Positions 1-36,426 of a stretch of DNA of 36,865 nt are shown one piece after another. Origin of the DNA: Planctomycetota bacterium (lineage in GTDB: Bacteria > Planctomycetota > Planctomycetia > Pirellulales > Pirellulaceae). The stretch spans positions 1-36,865 of the forward strand of contig JAQCHP010000040.1 of the NCBI GenBank assembly GCA_027619595.1, in the 5' to 3' direction. Position 1 is the first letter of the stretch; every line of letters starts with the position of its first letter. Made by a program: the position numbers and the translations under genes. Under the pieces are notes generated by a model. It was given only the letters and a program-made list of their open reading frames with translations. It was not told where the DNA came from and searched no databases.

Positions 1-66
1 TTCTTGTCACGCCGATTGACGGAACACGCTCGGATGCGACGCAATCACTCGCTCGCGCGTCGTGCT
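1..66 (+). repeat. ~66-bp dispersed direct repeat, copy A
   Basis: This copy matches 2828-2893 at 61 of 66 positions by eye, in the same orientation. It contains the stretch cgccgattgacggaacacgc followed by an alternating cg-rich tail (ctcgctcgcgcgtcgtgct). Its last bases reach the stop codon of the minus-strand sialidase-esterase gene. With copy B it brackets that gene almost exactly. The copy may continue left of the window. Confidence 0.85.
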
Positions 67-2728
67 AGTGACCGAGAAATCTCGGTGCAAGTTTGCTCTT
101 CACGAAATCCCCAATGCGTTGCACCGCTTCACGAGATTCGGGCAACCCCCGAACCTGAAAAACATGCACCATCCCCGGCCAGATCTCAAGCTTTACGCTG
201 GTGCCGTCGGCTCGAGCTTTTTTGGCCACCCGGATACTGTCGTCTCGCAGCATTTCGTGCTCGCCCGTCTGTATCAATAGTGGTGGCAAACCGCGAAAGT
301 CGCCAAACACCGGAGACGCGAATGGCTGCCGCGGGTCTGCGGATGCCAAATAGCGACTCCGAAATTCGGGCATCGTCCTGGAACTGACGATTGGATCGTC
401 GACCGACTTTAGAGATTGGCTCGATAAGGTGAGGTCCGTTGCCGGCGAGATCGCGATCGCCCCCGACGGAAGCGGGTGTTTGCGTTCCTTGAGCACAAGC
501 AGCGTTGCCAACGTTAGATTTCCCCCGGCAGAGTCACCGGCGACAAAGGTCGCTCTGGCGGCGGCAGGACCCGACGGCCCGTTGGCAACAAGCCATTGAT
601 GCGCGGCGACGCAGTCCTCAAGTCCCGCAGGGAACGGATGCTCCGGCGCGAGGCGATAATCCGCCAGCAACACGGCACAATTTGCGGCGCGTGAGATTTC
701 GGCAGCCAGAGGCAGATAATTGGCTCCCGATCCAGATACAAATCCACCTCCGTGCAGGTACAGAAGTCGTACGTCAGGATCAGCGTCAGGAGTCATGACC
801 CACTCACACGGTACGTCTCCCACGTGGACTTGACTCAAAGTGACTCCCGGAACAGTGGGTAATTGCCTCGCTGCCATACCCGATCGCAGGCCGTCGAGAT
901 CGAAACTCGATTCTCCAAAAGGTGGCGATTGACGGCGCTGTTCCAAGTAGTCAATACCCTCCTTCGAGACTTCGCGTTGCCAAACTTCGCGCGCTGTGTG
1001 CCTCCGTGTCGGCTCAAGCAGTTCAATCAACGGCAGTTTCTCGAACACGAGGTGCGCCTGACTCCCCTCATACACGATCCCGATATGATCGCGATCAACG
1101 CGAGTAAGACTCGGGTAACCCGCGCCCTTCCCTTCATCCAACAACCAATGATGCGAGTCGGGCCAAGTGAGTCCCTCGTCAAAGCTGACTTGAATGGTAT
1201 GATTCGTTCGTCCTGCCTGCGAATGCGGATTCGCAAACAACAGCACATGCTTCCGTTCGCCATTGCTTTCGTAGTCGCAGCTTAGCAGGCTTCCGTTACA
1301 ATTTGGCTCAATGATCGTGGTGCGACTGGTGACATGAGGTTGCCACGTCTGACCGAGATCTTTCGTTACGGAAACCGCCCGAAAACGTTCGTGGTCATTG
1401 CGAATATTGAGCATGATCGAACCATCGTCAAGCAGCGCTGCTTGGCATTCGTTCCCGCCGCTGTAAGCCGGCGCGCCGACGGTCCAACTCCGACCATGAT
1501 CACGACTGATCATGATCGTCGCAAATGAGGCCAGTCGATCGCGACCAGTACGGCCTTCCACCGGCATGACGAGCGTGCCATCCGGCAGACAAATTCCCGC
1601 CTGCGGCGCCGGCGCAAGCAGCCACCACGCTTCCTGTTTCAGCTGCCGCGTCAGGTTCTCGGGCGGCGACCATGTGACGCCGTCGTCCGTCGAACGTACC
1701 ATCATGAACTGAGCCGATTTGCCAATCTCGAAGCCCGGCTCCGAGCCATCGTCAACCCACTGGTGTTGGCCAGGTTTGCCGTTCATCCACAAGGCAAAGC
1801 AAAAGATCTCGCCTGTCTGCTGATCAACAATGATGCCAGGATCGCCGCATCCATTCTGCTCCTGTGGCAGACCGCCGAATTCGCCCGTGTCCATGATGAC
1901 TCGCGGCGCCTCCCAGGTCTGTCCGTGAGTGGTGCTGCGACTAAGACCAACATCAATGTCCCCCTGCAAGTCGCCCCCAGCGCGGCGCCGTATATCATAG
2001 ACGGCTAATAAAGTCCCCTTCGAGGAGGTCGTTAAGGCAGGTATTCGATAGGTATGAACCCCATCCTCGCGCCGCTTTCGTAAAGCAAATCCGATCCTTT
2101 GATGTGAGTTCGCCGTGTCCTCGCGCGGCGTGATGCTACCAACCGAAGTGGCAATCGACAAACACGTCGCCGCGAGTTGGTGGTGCAGAACAGCCGAGTC
2201 TTTGAGTCGGCACGATAACCAGAAGACATTCCGCCCCTCAATCAATTGCCGATCAATCGGCAGACTAATCCGCCGAGCCGGCGCTATGGCTTCTCCGATC
2301 GGAGCAGCTGGCGAAAAACTTTCTTGCTCCCCCGTACTCAACAACTGCACCGTATCGATGTCATTCAGGTCATCGGTGCCGTCAAGGGAGAATTCCATCG
2401 ACTTCAATCGAGCTGTTTGCCCCAGCGCCACGTCGATCATCACACACAGTAAGGGACCGTGCTCATTGCGAATCAAGATCGGGTGTTCGGGTCGCACGAC
2501 GTGGGCCGACAAATCTCGCTTCGGTTCCTGCGCGCGCCCGTTGGACAGTGAACCCAAGCATGCGAGAATGCATACTGCGAAAAGAAGAAACCATCGATTG
2601 GCGAGGCCGCTCAGAGGGCGCCATTTCCTGAACGTCGTCGGCGTAGTGACTCCTAACGATGGGACGGGCGCGGTGGCTCCATCGGCAGAAGCAATTTGAC
2701 AGTAAATCATTTTCAAAGAGTGGTTCAT
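65..2728 (-). CDS. Secreted sialidase fused to an HSL-family alpha/beta-hydrolase (esterase)
   Basis: A two-domain secreted enzyme of about 887 residues. After a hydrophobic signal segment (about residues 46-66), a sialidase N-terminal accessory region (about 70-205) leads into a six-bladed sialidase propeller. It carries the YRIP arginine motif (R228), Asp boxes near 265, 346, 408, 455 (TKDLGQTW) and 515 (SFDEGLTW), and a GYPSL segment holding the likely nucleophile Tyr538. From about residue 640 a hormone-sensitive-lipase-type esterase follows, with HGGGF (659-663), GDSAGG (Ser733), a likely acid at Glu825 and His855 in GMVHVF. Both catalytic sets look complete, so the protein should cleave terminal sialic-acid-like residues and hydrolyse an ester, perhaps an O-acetyl group on the same sugar (inference). 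The longest frame begins with TTG at 2770; I chose ATG at 2728, with ATG 2710 also possible. No Shine-Dalgarno sequence is convincing. The gene is bracketed by the copies of the 66-bp repeat. Confidence 0.85.
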   Translation of the reverse strand: MNHSLKMIYCQIASADGATAPVPSLGVTTPTTFRKWRPLSGLANRWFLLFAVCILACLGSLSNGRAQEPKRDLSAHVVRPEHPILIRNEHGPLLCVMIDVALGQTARLKSMEFSLDGTDDLNDIDTVQLLSTGEQESFSPAAPIGEAIAPARRISLPIDRQLIEGRNVFWLSCRLKDSAVLHHQLAATCLSIATSVGSITPREDTANSHQRIGFALRKRREDGVHTYRIPALTTSSKGTLLAVYDIRRRAGGDLQGDIDVGLSRSTTHGQTWEAPRVIMDTGEFGGLPQEQNGCGDPGIIVDQQTGEIFCFALWMNGKPGQHQWVDDGSEPGFEIGKSAQFMMVRSTDDGVTWSPPENLTRQLKQEAWWLLAPAPQAGICLPDGTLVMPVEGRTGRDRLASFATIMISRDHGRSWTVGAPAYSGGNECQAALLDDGSIMLNIRNDHERFRAVSVTKDLGQTWQPHVTSRTTIIEPNCNGSLLSCDYESNGERKHVLLFANPHSQAGRTNHTIQVSFDEGLTWPDSHHWLLDEGKGAGYPSLTRVDRDHIGIVYEGSQAHLVFEKLPLIELLEPTRRHTAREVWQREVSKEGIDYLEQRRQSPPFGESSFDLDGLRSGMAARQLPTVPGVTLSQVHVGDVPCEWVMTPDADPDVRLLYLHGGGFVSGSGANYLPLAAEISRAANCAVLLADYRLAPEHPFPAGLEDCVAAHQWLVANGPSGPAAARATFVAGDSAGGNLTLATLLVLKERKHPLPSGAIAISPATDLTLSSQSLKSVDDPIVSSRTMPEFRSRYLASADPRQPFASPVFGDFRGLPPLLIQTGEHEMLRDDSIRVAKKARADGTSVKLEIWPGMVHVFQVRGLPESREAVQRIGDFVKSKLAPRFLGH

Positions 2729-2966: not shown

Positions 2967-4373
2967 CTAAAACATTTGCACCAAGGGCTGGCCATTCGCA
3001 AGGCGATGGGGTCGGTTGAGTGTGTCCCGCATCTCGGCCTGCGGATCGATGCCAAATCGCCAGTACAACGTGGCGGCGAGGTCGCCAGGAGTGACGGGTT
3101 CCGATGCGGGGTACGCGCCGTTCCGATCACTGGCACCAACGATCGTGCCTCCGGTCACCCCTCCCCCGGCCAATAACGCGGTGTAGCAATCGGGCCAATG
3201 GTCCCGTCCTGCGCTCGGGTTGATCTTCGGGGTGCGTCCAAATTCGCCGGTAGCCACAACCAGCGTCGATTCCAGCAATCCGCGTTCGTGAAGATCGTCG
3301 ATCAACGCGGCTAACGATCGATCTGCCAAGGGGAGTAAGTGGTTCTTGTGTTGATCGAAGTTATCGTCGTGGGCGTCCCAATTTTGACCCTGCTGTTGAA
3401 AGTCATAGACATTGACAAACGGGACCCCCGCTTCGACCAAGCGACGAGCGATGAGCAGGTTTTGGCCACGCATTTGCCGGGCGAATCCCAAAGCCGCGCG
3501 CGCACCTCCTCCTTCTCCGACCGCCTTCGCCGCTGCCTCGTAACCATACCGTTCTCGTACCGCGTCCGGTTCCCGCGACAGGTCCAATGCCTCCAGTATT
3601 TCTTTGGAGTCAAACAGTCGCTGGGCCCGTTCGAGCACGGACGCTTGTGCCTGGATCGCGGGACCTGTCAGCCAGTGGCGGGTATTGATGTCCGCCAGCA
3701 GGGCTTGACGTTGCGTTCGACGGTGGACCGACACGTCGGGGGGAAGCGCGAGTGAGCCGAGTCCATAAAGACGTTTTTCTGGATCGACCTGGATCAGAAG
3801 CGGATCAAAGTCAGCCCCCAAGAAACCAGCTCCTTGGCAGGGGACTGGGTGCACGTTTCGAAATGCAAACGGCAAGGCCGCGCCGGGTAAGCGATCGTCT
3901 TGCCGAAGCTCGTACGCCACCGCACTACCAAGACTAGGGTAGGCCTGCGGCGTCGGATCAAGGAGTTCTCGATCAGGACCGTCCAACGGTCGTCCGGTGA
4001 GTGCGTGGATGGAAGCCGAATCGTGCAACCGTGCCTCATGGTGCATACTGCGGATCAGGGCCACATGATGCATGCGTTGCGCCATGTGCGGCAGATGTTC
4101 GCTAATTCGAATGCCGGGTACCGACGTGGCAATCGTCTTGAACTCGCCCCGAACCTCGGCCGGCGCATCGGGCTTCGGATCGTACGTATCGATATGGCTC
4201 GGACCGCCATAGTAAAAGATGAAAATACAGGCCCGGATAGGTGGACGAGTGAACGAAGTGGTTGCGGGGACCGCCATGGCTTGCCCACGCCACAAGCTCG
4301 GAAGCCCGACGCTCAGAAAGCTGGCGAGCCCGCGCTGCAAGGCATATCGGCGGGGGATCGTTTGGCGACGCAT
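2967..4373 (-). CDS. DUF1501 family exported protein
   Basis: A 468-residue member of DUF1501, a sulfatase/alkaline-phosphatase-fold family greatly expanded in planctomycetes and of unknown reaction. The N-terminus has a twin-arginine-like start (RRYALQRG near residue 8) and a short hydrophobic stretch, which suggests Tat export. Family landmarks are IFYYGGPSHIDTYDPKP near residue 52, SMHHEARLHDSAS near 108, an Asn-Trp-Asp-Ala-His-Asp segment near 340 that would contribute metal ligands, and GEFGRTPKINPSAGRDHWP near 390. The ATG at 4373 follows a GAGAAAG purine run. In planctomycetes such genes usually sit beside DUF1549/DUF1553 cytochrome-like genes; none is seen here, so it is a solitary copy. 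The family call is firm; function is unknown. Confidence 0.93.
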   Translation of the reverse strand: MRRQTIPRRYALQRGLASFLSVGLPSLWRGQAMAVPATTSFTRPPIRACIFIFYYGGPSHIDTYDPKPDAPAEVRGEFKTIATSVPGIRISEHLPHMAQRMHHVALIRSMHHEARLHDSASIHALTGRPLDGPDRELLDPTPQAYPSLGSAVAYELRQDDRLPGAALPFAFRNVHPVPCQGAGFLGADFDPLLIQVDPEKRLYGLGSLALPPDVSVHRRTQRQALLADINTRHWLTGPAIQAQASVLERAQRLFDSKEILEALDLSREPDAVRERYGYEAAAKAVGEGGGARAALGFARQMRGQNLLIARRLVEAGVPFVNVYDFQQQGQNWDAHDDNFDQHKNHLLPLADRSLAALIDDLHERGLLESTLVVATGEFGRTPKINPSAGRDHWPDCYTALLAGGGVTGGTIVGASDRNGAYPASEPVTPGDLAATLYWRFGIDPQAEMRDTLNRPHRLANGQPLVQMF

Positions 4374-18852: not shown

Positions 18853-20274
18853 TCAAGGAGCCGGGTCGGTCGAACGAACGTTCGCTTCCGACAGCCCGGC
18901 GAATAACTGCGATATTTCCATGTCCTGATGTGGAAAAACCGTACGGAGATCTAGTCGTACGCGATCTTGTGCCACTCGGGTCATAAGAGACGGATCGGAC
19001 AACCGCAACCGTTGCGCTAATTGATCGCAGCGTTCGTCACGCGGTTCAATCGCCACACACCAAGTGGGGACATCCTCGTTTGGCAGCGATCCACCACCCA
19101 CAGGAGATTTATCCGCTACCACCTCGGCCGAGCGCACAACGCGGCTACTTGCAATCTGTGGCGCCAAACGATCTGCTCGATGCTTGATATTCTCTAGCTT
19201 CGTACTCAATAGCCCCCACAACGGTAAGTGTTGCGACAATTCGTCGGGTTTTTGATAGAGCCGCAACGTGGCGGCCAAAGCTGCCAGAGTGAGTTTCCCC
19301 ACGCGAAGTGCCCGGCTGAGCGGATGCCGGGCCAACATTTCGACATATTGTTTGCGTCCTACGATAATGCCGCACTGAGGACCACCTAGTAACTTATCGC
19401 CGCTAAATAACACTAAGTCCGCACCGGCGGCAATGCTCTCACGTGCCACCGGCTCACCGGGCGCTCGCAGCTCGTCCGAAGCCAGCAAGACCCCCGATCC
19501 AATATCATCCACCGCCACTAACCCACGATCATGGGCGATCCGGGCCATGGTACGAATGTCAACACTCTCGGTAAACCCAACGACCGCGTAGTTGCTGGGA
19601 TGCACACGCAACAGGACCCGCGTTTGATCGGTAATGGCCTTCTCGTAATCTTCACTGCAGGTTCGGTTCGTCGTACCAACCTCACGCAGATGACAGCCAC
19701 TCGCGTTCATCACTTCCGGGAGTCGATAACTACCGCCGATCTCCACCAACTGTCCGCGGGATACGATGACCTCTTGTCCGGCCGCCAATGCGGATAACGC
19801 CAAAACCGTCGCGGCCGCGTTGTTATTGACTACCAAGGCAGCCTCTGCCCCTGTCAAATCGATCAATTGCCGTTCCACGTGTGCACTGCGTCGTGAACGC
19901 TCGCCCGACCGAAGATCGATTTCCAAACTGCAGTAGCCTCGAGCCACCTGAACCATCTCCTGCAGCGCAACCTCGGACAAAGGAGCACGACCCAGCCCCG
20001 TGTGCAGTAGAGTCCCCGTACCGTTAATGACCGGACGCAATCCCGGCTGTTGATCGACGATAATCCAATCGGCAATTTTCCGAGCTAGATCGGTGGGAGT
20101 CGGAATGCGAATCTCAGCCGCCGCCGACTGAAAATCGTCCCGCAGTCCATCTAAGAACGAACGGACTCGTCCCACCACCAACCGATGACTGAACCGCTCA
20201 GTTAGCTGACGGATCAGCGGGTTCTCCAGTAATTCGTTTACCGACGGGATATGACGTAGCGGACTATCCGACAT
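18853..20274 (-). CDS. selA: L-seryl-tRNA(Sec) selenium transferase
   Basis: A 473-residue PLP enzyme that turns seryl-tRNA(Sec) into selenocysteinyl-tRNA(Sec) using selenophosphate. It matches E. coli SelA throughout: LRPVINGTGTLLHTGLGRA, VVNNNAAATVLAL, VSRGQLVEIGGSYRLPEVM, EVGTTNRT, and SGDKLLGGPQCGIIVG, where the lysine (residue 294) is the PLP lysine. I chose ATG at 20274. The frame stays open 46 codons further, to 20412, but those residues do not look like SelA. selB ends 199 bp upstream, and the proC start lies 18 bp downstream. Together with selB it implies that the organism makes selenoproteins. Confidence 0.96.
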   Translation of the reverse strand: MSDSPLRHIPSVNELLENPLIRQLTERFSHRLVVGRVRSFLDGLRDDFQSAAAEIRIPTPTDLARKIADWIIVDQQPGLRPVINGTGTLLHTGLGRAPLSEVALQEMVQVARGYCSLEIDLRSGERSRRSAHVERQLIDLTGAEAALVVNNNAAATVLALSALAAGQEVIVSRGQLVEIGGSYRLPEVMNASGCHLREVGTTNRTCSEDYEKAITDQTRVLLRVHPSNYAVVGFTESVDIRTMARIAHDRGLVAVDDIGSGVLLASDELRAPGEPVARESIAAGADLVLFSGDKLLGGPQCGIIVGRKQYVEMLARHPLSRALRVGKLTLAALAATLRLYQKPDELSQHLPLWGLLSTKLENIKHRADRLAPQIASSRVVRSAEVVADKSPVGGGSLPNEDVPTWCVAIEPRDERCDQLAQRLRLSDPSLMTRVAQDRVRLDLRTVFPHQDMEISQLFAGLSEANVRSTDPAP

Positions 20275-20473
20275 AATAATTCCGGCACCGTTCCTGCGTA
20301 TAAGACTCTGCCAGCCATTGTACGGTAGGTAGCACAGCGCTGCCATACGTCCACCGAGAATCGATGCTAGCGAGGCTTCCGCTTCGCCGAAAAATGTCGC
20401 CGAGAAACTCACCCGACTGTCCCATCAAATTCCCTCGCGCCACTTGTCCCGTTCAGCCACTCGAAACGATGGA

Positions 20474-22432
20474 TCAGCCGCCAGCAGGTCCCAGGACCCG
20501 CAGGTCTCCCGCCCGTACCGTAAATCCCGCTCGATCGAGATATTCACAGAACGGAACGGCATATCTCCGCGACGTCTGCAACAACTCACGGATCTGGCTA
20601 ACCGACATGCCGCCGCTACGTAACGGAGCACGCAGTAACTCACGTGCATCCCGCTCCACTTGGGCATGAAGGAGCATTTCTGCGCTGACCTGGATGAGGT
20701 CCCCCTCGGCCACGGCGAGCTTGAGCAGATCCTCAACCGCCTCACGATTGCGTGTGGTCGCGTCTCGACACTCTTGTACCGTAGGTGGCTGCAGTCCCGC
20801 GGTTTGAAAACGCTGTATGAGGACCTCATAAAGTTTCTTTTCGTTTGTAGAAATTCGCGGCGCGAATTCGGTCAGGCCGATCCCACTTCGCGTCCACCTA
20901 AGCCTCCCCTGGGTCACCAGACGAGCTACGATCTCCTGCAAGATTTCCGGATCTCCGTCAAACCGAAATCGATCCATGACGGCACTCCGATCAAGCAGTG
21001 AACTCCGTGGATGGTGCCGATGGGCGCGACGTAGATGCTGTTCGAAACGATCCCCAATATCCGCGAGCGTATCGACATGGAGCATGGAAGTACGGTTCGC
21101 ACTATGCACAATTTGCACGAGCGACTGCTCGGCACACATTTGGGACATCAGTGGTTCAATCTGTCGCCGGGGGACACCGGACAGCGACTCAAGTTCCTGA
21201 ACATCCCAGTGTTGCAGTCCCATCAGCTGAATGACGGCTGCCAACCGAATCTCTGGTTGTTCGCTACACAGGTTGTCGAGATGTTGGAGGCTTCGTGCAG
21301 TAAGTTTTCGCCAGGCTGGGACACTAGGCGACAGCACGCGTCCACCACCGATGGTGCACATCGGGGAGGACTGTCGAATTACCAGTGGCTGCCCCCACGC
21401 TACCAAAGCGCTTCTGGGGAGCATCATTTGCACCAAGGCAGTCTCCCCAGGCGACACTTCGGTGCGGTCCAGCAACTGAATACGCGTGATCCATTCGTCG
21501 GTGCCGAGATGCAATCGTACGGTGGCACGATGTTTGAGGGGGCGTGCGAGATGCGGCAGCAATTGGAGTTGCACCGTAAGCAACTGGGAAGCGCGAAAAC
21601 TGCCAACCTCGCACAATTCCTGTCCAGGGCGCACGGTTCGGTGGTGCACTCCTACAAGGTTGAAGGCCGCTCGTTGCCCGCGCCGTACTTCGTCGACCGG
21701 ACGATCGTGGTGATGAAGCCCTCGGACGCGTACTTCGCCACCGTCCGGTGCGAGCCAGAACGTATCTCCCACGTGTGCCCGCCCACTGCCAATACTTCCT
21801 GTCACAACCGTCCCGTGCCCTGCAACCGAAAAACTTCGATCAATGGGCATACGAAACGCCAACTTGTCGCGTTCAGAGTCTGCGTTGGCAGCCAATCGCT
21901 GAGCAGTTTCGACCAACACGCGACGCAGCGTATCCAGGCCGAGGCCCGTCTGGGAACTCGTACGGACCACGGGCGCATCGTGCAAGAACGTCCCGCGTAC
22001 CAGTTCACGCACTTCCCCCTCCACCAGGGTGATCCAATCGGGGTCGGCGGTATCACATTTGGTAAGCACCACGATACCGGCAGGAATTCGCAAAAACTGC
22101 AACACGTCAAGATGTTCTCGCGTCTGCTGCTTCACGGAATCATCCGCCGCCACGACCAGCATGACCATGTCCATTCCGGTCGCACCGGCCAACATCTGTC
22201 GCACGAATTTCTCATGTCCGGGCACATCGACAATGCCGAATTGAACGCTGCCCATGTCCAGCCACGCGTACCCCAGTTCGATCGTAATACCGCGTCGCTT
22301 TTCTTCCGGTAAACGATCGGTATCGGTTCCGGTAAGCGCGCGAATAAGAGACGTTTTTCCGTGATCGATATGCCCGGCCGTCCCCAGAATCAACTCCATC
22401 GGTCGTGACACAGTGGGAATGGTGTTGCTCAT
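20474..22432 (-). CDS. selB: Selenocysteine-specific elongation factor SelB
   Basis: A 652-residue translational GTPase that carries selenocysteinyl-tRNA to UGA codons next to a SECIS element. G motifs are GHIDHGKT (20-27), RRGITIELG (G2), DVPGHEKF (G3), TKCD (G4) and the SQTGLGLDTL turn (G5). Elongation-factor domains II and III follow, then about 280 C-terminal residues, the expected place for the winged-helix domains that bind SECIS RNA. The N-terminus opens with MSNTIPTVSRP before MELILGTAGHIDHGKT; a start at the second Met (22399) is possible, and neither has a clear Shine-Dalgarno. It is the first gene of the selB-selA-proC group. Confidence 0.96.
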   Translation of the reverse strand: MSNTIPTVSRPMELILGTAGHIDHGKTSLIRALTGTDTDRLPEEKRRGITIELGYAWLDMGSVQFGIVDVPGHEKFVRQMLAGATGMDMVMLVVAADDSVKQQTREHLDVLQFLRIPAGIVVLTKCDTADPDWITLVEGEVRELVRGTFLHDAPVVRTSSQTGLGLDTLRRVLVETAQRLAANADSERDKLAFRMPIDRSFSVAGHGTVVTGSIGSGRAHVGDTFWLAPDGGEVRVRGLHHHDRPVDEVRRGQRAAFNLVGVHHRTVRPGQELCEVGSFRASQLLTVQLQLLPHLARPLKHRATVRLHLGTDEWITRIQLLDRTEVSPGETALVQMMLPRSALVAWGQPLVIRQSSPMCTIGGGRVLSPSVPAWRKLTARSLQHLDNLCSEQPEIRLAAVIQLMGLQHWDVQELESLSGVPRRQIEPLMSQMCAEQSLVQIVHSANRTSMLHVDTLADIGDRFEQHLRRAHRHHPRSSLLDRSAVMDRFRFDGDPEILQEIVARLVTQGRLRWTRSGIGLTEFAPRISTNEKKLYEVLIQRFQTAGLQPPTVQECRDATTRNREAVEDLLKLAVAEGDLIQVSAEMLLHAQVERDARELLRAPLRSGGMSVSQIRELLQTSRRYAVPFCEYLDRAGFTVRAGDLRVLGPAGG

Positions 22433-34959: not shown

Positions 34960-36426
34960 ATGTTACCGTTTGGCCCCCAAGACCGCCGTCAGTTTATCAA
35001 ACAAACTGCGGCCACAACAATTCTTACATCGCTTGGACCGACTCACGCAATCGGGAAACTGCATAGATCGGACGATGCTCCCGAATGTTGTGATCGAACG
35101 TATGCAACGGTTGCCGCAGCGATTAAAGCGCCGCCTGAAACGATCGCTTATGTTCCAGCGATCTACGCGGGCTCGAATGTCAAACAACCCGATTACTTGG
35201 CTACCATTGACCTGGACAGTAGTTCGAAGACTTACGGTCAAGTGATCCACCGGTTGCCGATGCCCAATATCGGTGACGAGCTTCATCATTTCGGTTGGAA
35301 TTCCTGCAGCAGCTGTCACGGAAAGGACAAAGTCGGACGCCGATTTATCGTGCTGCCAGGAATCAGTTCCAGTCGCATTCACATTGTCGACACCATTGAT
35401 CCACGTGCTCCCAAAATGCACAAAGTCATTGAACCAGAAACCATAAAATTGAAAACGGGATTGTCTGCACCGCATACCGTACATTGCCTTTCAACTGGCG
35501 AAATCATGATTTCGATGCTCGGCAACGCGGACGGCGAAGGCCCCGGCGGATTCATGTTGCTGGATCAGAAATTTGATGTCAAAGGCCGATGGGAAAAAGA
35601 TGCGACGGGCATGCAATTCAATTACGACTTCTGGTACCAGCCCCGACTCAATTCGATGGTCAGCAGCGAGTGGGGAGCTCCAAACACCGTTTCCCAAGGA
35701 TTCAAACTCGAGCATGTGGCTGAAGGCAAATACGGTCGACGGCTGCATTTTTGGGATTGGGAAAACCGAAAGATCGTTCAGTCGATCGACTTGGGTGAAG
35801 AAGGTTTGATACCGCTGGAAGTGAGATTTCATCATGATCCTTCCAGCACCCATGGCTTTGTCGGAGCAGCTTTAAGCAGCACCATTTGGCATTGGCATAA
35901 GCCCGGAGACAAATGGGAAGCCAAGCAAATCATTGGAGTCGATTCCGTCCCAACCGACGGCTGGCCATTTCCGGTACCTGGTCTAATTACAGATGTCGTG
36001 CTCTCAATGGATGATCGTTTCCTGTACTTCTCCAATTGGTTGCACGGCGATCTGCGACAGTACAATGTCAGTGATCCAGTGAACCCGAAACTGACTGGAC
36101 AAGTCTGGTTAGGAGGCGTGATTGGCAAGGGCAGGGAACTGAACGGAAAAAATCTGACCGGCGGCCCGCAAATGTTGCAGTTGAGCTTGGATGGCAAACG
36201 CCTTTATCTGACGAATTCTCTCTATGGCCCCTGGGACAATCAGTTCTACCCGGATATGGCCCAGACCGGATCGTACTTTCTGAAGATTGACTGCGATACA
36301 GACAAAGGCGGAATGACGTTGGACGAAAAGTTCTTTGTCGATTTTGGCGTCGAACCCAATGGTCCAGCTCGTGCGCACGAGATCCGTTTTGCTACCGGCG
36401 ACAGCACATCCGATATCTGGAGTTAA
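34960..36426 (+). CDS. Tat-exported selenium-binding protein (SBP56)/methanethiol oxidase homologue
   Basis: A 488-residue member of the SBP56/SELENBP1/MtoX family. Bacterial and human members oxidise methanethiol to formaldehyde, hydrogen sulfide and hydrogen peroxide, using copper. A twin-arginine signal (DRRQFIKQTAATTILTSLG) suggests export. Family landmarks are ELHHFGWNSCSSCHG (107 on, a CxxC), APHTVHCLSTGEIMISMLG near 170, FNYDFWYQPRLNSMVSSEWG, HDPSSTHGFVG and the final HEIRFATGDSTSDIWS, which matches the TSDIW end of the family. Several His residues would bind metal. Despite the family name no selenocysteine is involved, and it is not an operon partner of selAB. The start is ATG 34960. 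It lies inside the repeat-bounded segment. Confidence 0.92.
   Translation: MLPFGPQDRRQFIKQTAATTILTSLGPTHAIGKLHRSDDAPECCDRTYATVAAAIKAPPETIAYVPAIYAGSNVKQPDYLATIDLDSSSKTYGQVIHRLPMPNIGDELHHFGWNSCSSCHGKDKVGRRFIVLPGISSSRIHIVDTIDPRAPKMHKVIEPETIKLKTGLSAPHTVHCLSTGEIMISMLGNADGEGPGGFMLLDQKFDVKGRWEKDATGMQFNYDFWYQPRLNSMVSSEWGAPNTVSQGFKLEHVAEGKYGRRLHFWDWENRKIVQSIDLGEEGLIPLEVRFHHDPSSTHGFVGAALSSTIWHWHKPGDKWEAKQIIGVDSVPTDGWPFPVPGLITDVVLSMDDRFLYFSNWLHGDLRQYNVSDPVNPKLTGQVWLGGVIGKGRELNGKNLTGGPQMLQLSLDGKRLYLTNSLYGPWDNQFYPDMAQTGSYFLKIDCDTDKGGMTLDEKFFVDFGVEPNGPARAHEIRFATGDSTSDIWS

Follow-up and report, generated by a model that had tools for sequence, protein, structure and literature searches.

O-acetylation generally protects Neu5Ac from sialidases, and NanS, EstA and the P. 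vulgatus SAE have been described as bacterial sialate deacetylases (PMC10017367, PMC7232152). Another arrangement is found in B. bifidum SiaBb1, an O-acetylesterase/GH33 sialidase fusion which removes 9-O-acetyl groups (PMC10017367, PMC7232152). The GH33 enzymes of C. perfringens accept 9-O-acetylation, while 4-O-acetylation blocks all three and 7-O-acetylation some of them (PMC11525138). In Planctomycetota, GH33 genes are abundant and some isolates carry a complete nan pathway; GH156 sialidases of environmental members probably target plant glycans (PMC11929135).

The window analyzed here is an entire 36,865-nucleotide contig from a planctomycete of the Pirellulaceae, and its left end lies just past the stop of a gene whose sialidase and esterase domains are predicted to share one secreted chain, as in SiaBb1-type proteins. 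Both SiaBb1 and the window protein hold GH33 and an esterase in a single polypeptide. However, SiaBb1 belongs to another bacterial phylum and its esterase is not stated to be of the hormone-sensitive lipase (HSL) type (PMC10017367, PMC7232152); the two are likened by description, not by sequence. NanS, EstA and P. vulgatus SAE share the proposed reaction, O-deacetylation ahead of a sialidase, but are separate enzymes of the SGNH fold, whereas the window protein carries an HSL domain and no SASA domain (PF03629) in a Pfam scan. None of the papers searched brought the terms "sialate O-acetylesterase" and "hormone-sensitive lipase" together, which is an absence only. The initial annotation held that such a fusion would be an unusual solution; this holds for the esterase type but not for the fusion itself, since SiaBb1 is already characterized. 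The bifunctional esterase-sialidase principle is thus known, and what is new is that the partner is of the HSL type and is conserved in Planctomycetota.

The most likely reading is that of the initial annotation, deacetylation followed by cleavage. In the form developed here, which has about an even chance of being correct, the protein would be a secreted bifunctional glycan-decapping enzyme. Its HSL half would use Ser733-Glu825-His855 to strip sialic acid, or a sugar close to it, of esters that are most likely O-acetyls, and the tethered GH33 domain would then free the unblocked sialic acid through a retaining Tyr538/Glu427 mechanism. The ester is presumed to be an O-acetyl on sialic acid, with both sites working on the same molecule. 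If true, the protein would offer a two-in-one reagent for O-acetylated sialoglycans and reveal how Planctomycetota in the environment gain access to carbon that is otherwise protected.

Domain layout and active sites

The fusion gene occupies positions 65-2728 on the minus strand and encodes 887 amino acids counted from the first ATG. The frame extends upstream to a TTG at 2770 (65-2770 open) with zero internal stops; a plus-strand reading of 65-2728 was rejected, as it contains stops throughout. The Pfam matches all lie above gathering cut-offs: PF14873 at residues 76-194, PF13088 (BNR_2) at 251-545 (3e-33) and PF07859 (Abhydrolase_3) at 655-858 (2.3e-58). They bear out the claim that one uninterrupted frame holds a full sialidase and an esterase, and every motif named in the initial annotation is present. 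The N-terminal region (2531-2728, minus strand) contains a probable Sec signal peptide, called by eye from a hydrophobic segment at about residues 46-61 and an A-x-A-like end (GRA/QEP); homologs also have hydrophobic N-terminal segments.

A beta-sandwich-like BNR_assoc_N domain (PF14873; 2147-2503, minus strand), with its strands seen in the predicted model, precedes the GH33-type propeller (1016-2095, minus strand; residues 212-571). The six-bladed propeller is matched by PF13088, PF13859 and PF02012 and contains five Asp-box-like motifs (265, 346, 408, 455 and 515). Its GH33 catalytic set is complete: the Arg triad R228 (in YRIP), R443 and R507, the acid/base D253, E427 and the nucleophile Y538. 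These six residues are invariant in an alignment of 24 fused and 26 unfused relatives, truncated rows excepted. In an AlphaFold2 model of the fusion protein (mean pLDDT 83, pTM 0.82; input, a 38-row alignment), residues 67-571 resemble Bacteroidales sialidases at 34-37% identity, such as that of B. caccae (4q6k, Z 49.7), and comparison with BTSA/Sialidase26-type sialidases gave Z 47-50 and 2.1-2.5 Å over 476-489 residues. BTSA (4bbw), Sialidase26 (6mrv) and T. forsythia NanH (7qy9), all from Bacteroidales, have a PF14873-like N-domain, a propeller and the same catalytic residues (Z about 49) but, unlike the window protein, no esterase domain. By predicted fold and aligned catalytic residues, the propeller is assigned as a GH33 exo-sialidase.

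A linker of about 20 residues (EPTRRH..REVWQREVS; 965-1015, minus strand, approximately residues 572-588 in the alignment) is kept across the fusions as EPTRRH..R..WQREVS in the 38-row alignment. It leads into an HSL/family IV esterase (80-964, minus strand; residues 589-883) with HGGGF at 659 (oxyanion HGGG 659-662), GDSAGG at 731-736 including the nucleophile Ser733 (codon 530-532, minus strand), E825-M-L and H855-V-F. The His beside the usual Asp position resembled a broken acid, but loss of the triad was rejected: the aligned acid is Glu825, accepted because Glu is also found across the whole esterase clade in the alignment and in the HSL esterase EstD04, which has E-x-L and H-x-F motifs and a Ser-Glu-His triad (PMC10385968). 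The Ser733-Glu825-His855 triad is thus intact. NCBIfam HSL subfamily models match the domain below their curated cut-offs. The C-terminal part of the model matches EstD11 and EstE5 at 39-44% identity with a target TM of 0.83-0.88 in Foldseek; the fold assignment uses Foldseek and phmmer, the VIA-align list being filled by the sialidase half. The metagenomic esterases EstD11 (7at0), EstE5 (3fak) and Est8 (6y9k) share HGGG, GDSAGG, E-x-L, HV[FW], the cap and the fold, but are single-domain proteins without a sialidase. Motifs, profile and predicted fold together place the C-terminal domain in the HSL/family IV esterases.

These assignments bear on a different pair of substrates. The esterase might remove lactones or non-acetyl esters of sialic acid, or the propeller might act on Kdn, Kdo, pseudaminic or legionaminic acid from environmental bacteria or algae. 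HSL esterases take many small esters, and the hosts of the fusion come from aquatic or environmental assemblies. The probable action of environmental GH156 sialidases on plant glycans points the same way (PMC11929135). However, the closest solved relatives of the propeller, at 34-37% identity, are sialidases for Neu5Ac/Neu5Gc and share its catalytic set, and such substrates are considered improbable.

Distribution of the fusion and origin of the esterase half

Another 24 species contigs (L037-L059 and L061), all from Planctomycetota, each encode the fusion in one open frame. Some are truncated at contig ends, and the best segments are 65-81% identical. With the window, the total is 25 species contigs, in which both active sites are intact. 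The initial annotation had named occurrence in one genome and a frameshift as outcomes that would speak against it; with the same architecture in 24 other assemblies the fusion is neither, and an assembly artifact was rejected. The distribution scan covered one genome per species with peptide patterns from close relatives, and the other genome search covered Planctomycetota. In a sample from the same order, 3 of 396 genomes, including that of the window, encode the fusion, and many have the sialidase only or the esterase only. A phylum-wide draw of 392 genomes returned the window's genome and G083 as its only fusions, both already in the order sample, together with stand-alone esterases (55-72% identical) in other orders and classes.

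Most of the fused proteins fall into a single supported group in the sialidase tree, and close unfused relatives surround this group. In the esterase tree, 23 fused domains and the stand-alone L065 form one clade (support 97/98). Outside it branch the secreted stand-alone esterases, and a deeper split (99/97) sets the whole assemblage apart from other HSLs. The fused protein L058 is an exception, its esterase falling among the stand-alone set, and a topology that unites every fused esterase with L065 in one clade is rejected (AU p 0.0006). The expectation that the esterase half would cluster with sialidase-linked homologs therefore survives for the inner clade but not for its nearest outer relatives, which are stand-alone and without a sialidase gene in their covered flanks. 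Because the older clade members are unfused, the esterase half appears to have been recruited from a distinct planctomycete clade. The simplest reading, subject to long branches and MAG sources, is that the domains were joined once in the main clade and rejoined or swapped in L058, and that the sialidase was lost in L065.

The absence of a flanking sialidase among the stand-alone members suggests that the older substrate of the clade may be another acetyl ester. It also favors a bifunctional glycan depolymerase whose esterase would leave sialic acid itself alone and target other esters of the sialylated or sulfated glycan on which the sialidase acts, such as acetyls on adjacent sugars or different acyl groups. 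In two neighborhoods an S9-type hydrolase lies directly upstream of a clade esterase, one fused (L037:3721-5799) and one stand-alone (L122:4748-6742), and the two hydrolases are 50% identical; this too has been counted toward a depolymerase, as have sulfatase domains in some sister sialidases, which could be general decapping assemblies. Set against it, the esterase stays tied to GH33 within the single fused clade, and the sister sialidases are most often partnered by SASA, whose name refers to a sialic-acid-specific acetylesterase. A depolymerase of this kind is judged unlikely, even with a member of the family (L051, below) that already has SASA for sialic acid.

Esterase partners of sister sialidases

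Sister sialidases from planctomycetes, which share the PF14873-GH33 core at about 45% identity, carry SASA in 14/14 scanned ORFs of more than 1000 amino acids, a count from deliberately chosen large ORFs; two scanned ORFs of about 700 amino acids had none. SASA was scored by Pfam scan, as a home-made SASA model caught only one SASA subtype. Examples such as L103, L108 and L111 come from the same taxonomic order as the window protein and share its core and an in-chain esterase, but their partner is an SGNH-fold SASA instead of an alpha/beta-hydrolase HSL, often with a sulfatase; sulfatase or GDSL domains are sometimes added. One 1840-amino-acid frame (L051:2917-8439) combines DUF2341, LamG, SASA, PF14873, GH33 and HSL in one chain. 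The SASA count and the L051 architecture indicate that planctomycete sialidases are repeatedly tied to esterases, usually of the sialate-specific kind, and no other evidence argues as strongly for a role of the HSL half in deacetylation as well. The HSL need not replace SASA, since the host has SASA proteins elsewhere in its genome and L051 has both; the presence of both in L051 suggests that the two may be complementary rather than interchangeable.

Larger assemblies occur in the same proteins. L103, L111, L113, L115, L117 and L119 are giant proteins with a sulfatase, a GH33 sialidase and SASA, and L111 and L115 have two sulfatase stretches; all-in-one desulfation, deacetylation and desialylation is a possible role. 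Additional domains sit at the C-terminus of two HSL fusions: a GHL10-like glycoside hydrolase in one (L040:4462-8739) and a second BNR propeller in the other (L046:5854-9600). Such linking of secreted catalytic domains is frequent in planctomycetes and is what would be expected if fusion merely secured the joint secretion of two scavenging enzymes with unrelated substrates. Random joining would not lead one to expect an esterase as the repeated partner of the sialidase (HSL in 25, SASA in 15), nor does it fit a linker that is short and conserved, and joint secretion is regarded as very improbable.

For the decapping of sialic acid, the evidence comprises the conserved fusion, the active sites and fold matches, the SASA sister fusions, L051, the recruitment of the esterase with a second joining indicated, the sialidase resistance of O-acetylated Neu5Ac, the SiaBb1 precedent and the NanA-like and epimerase-like genes of the host. 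Against it stand the clade's stand-alone esterases, 55-72% identical and without a sialidase in covered flanks, the host's other SASA proteins, the two esterases of L051, the lack of a NanE match, the sub-cut-off scores of the NanA-like and epimerase-like matches, and GH33 enzymes which cleave 9-O-acetylated sialosides unaided (PMC11525138). A narrower proposal is offered tentatively, at somewhat less than even confidence: the HSL domain would be a genuine sialate O-acetylesterase and the first that belongs to the HSL and not the SGNH type. It might serve acetyl positions that GH33 cannot tolerate, and would have been recruited more than once in parallel to SASA. Should the HSL half deacetylate sialic acid, two hydrolase superfamilies would have given rise to sialate O-acetylesterases, and sialidases would have gained such a partner on more than one occasion. 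With SASA and HSL fusions existing side by side, the deacetylation idea is directly open to test.

Host genome and neighborhood

No sialic-acid gene cluster surrounds the fusion gene; its neighbors encode DUF1501, AAA, NAGPA-like, riboflavin synthase and enolase proteins. The next gene upstream (2967-4373, minus strand; gap about 200-240 bp) encodes the DUF1501 protein, which is counted here only as a neighbor. DUF1501 occurs at 9/24 fused loci, where the density of the window's genome would predict about 2.5, but no role is claimed because that density may differ elsewhere and because DUF1501 genes are clustered. In the 5.2 Mb of the window's genome itself, DUF1501 is matched 77 times, and about 70 of these matches are close to full length. 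Elsewhere this genome encodes a NanA-like lyase, with 175 bits to its best NCBIfam match PRK04147 (cut-off 281), and an N-acylglucosamine 2-epimerase-like protein with 362 bits (cut-off 600; next family 65), both below cut-off; no match to NanE was found in this genome. Use of sialic acid by the host is plausible from these genes.

Two further features of the window were recorded. Adjoining homologs of selA and selB lie on the minus strand at 18853-22432, with a gene for a 56 kDa selenium-binding protein (SBP56) further on at 34960-36426, and no tRNA-Sec was found in the window. The fusion and DUF1501 genes, which are consecutive on the minus strand, each have an 88-nt direct repeat just 3′ of them (1-88 and 2828-2915). 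The folding of this repeat is not above that of shuffled sequence and it has no Rfam match. Further copies of its core are present in the genome on C112 and C156, with weaker ones on C248 and C281.
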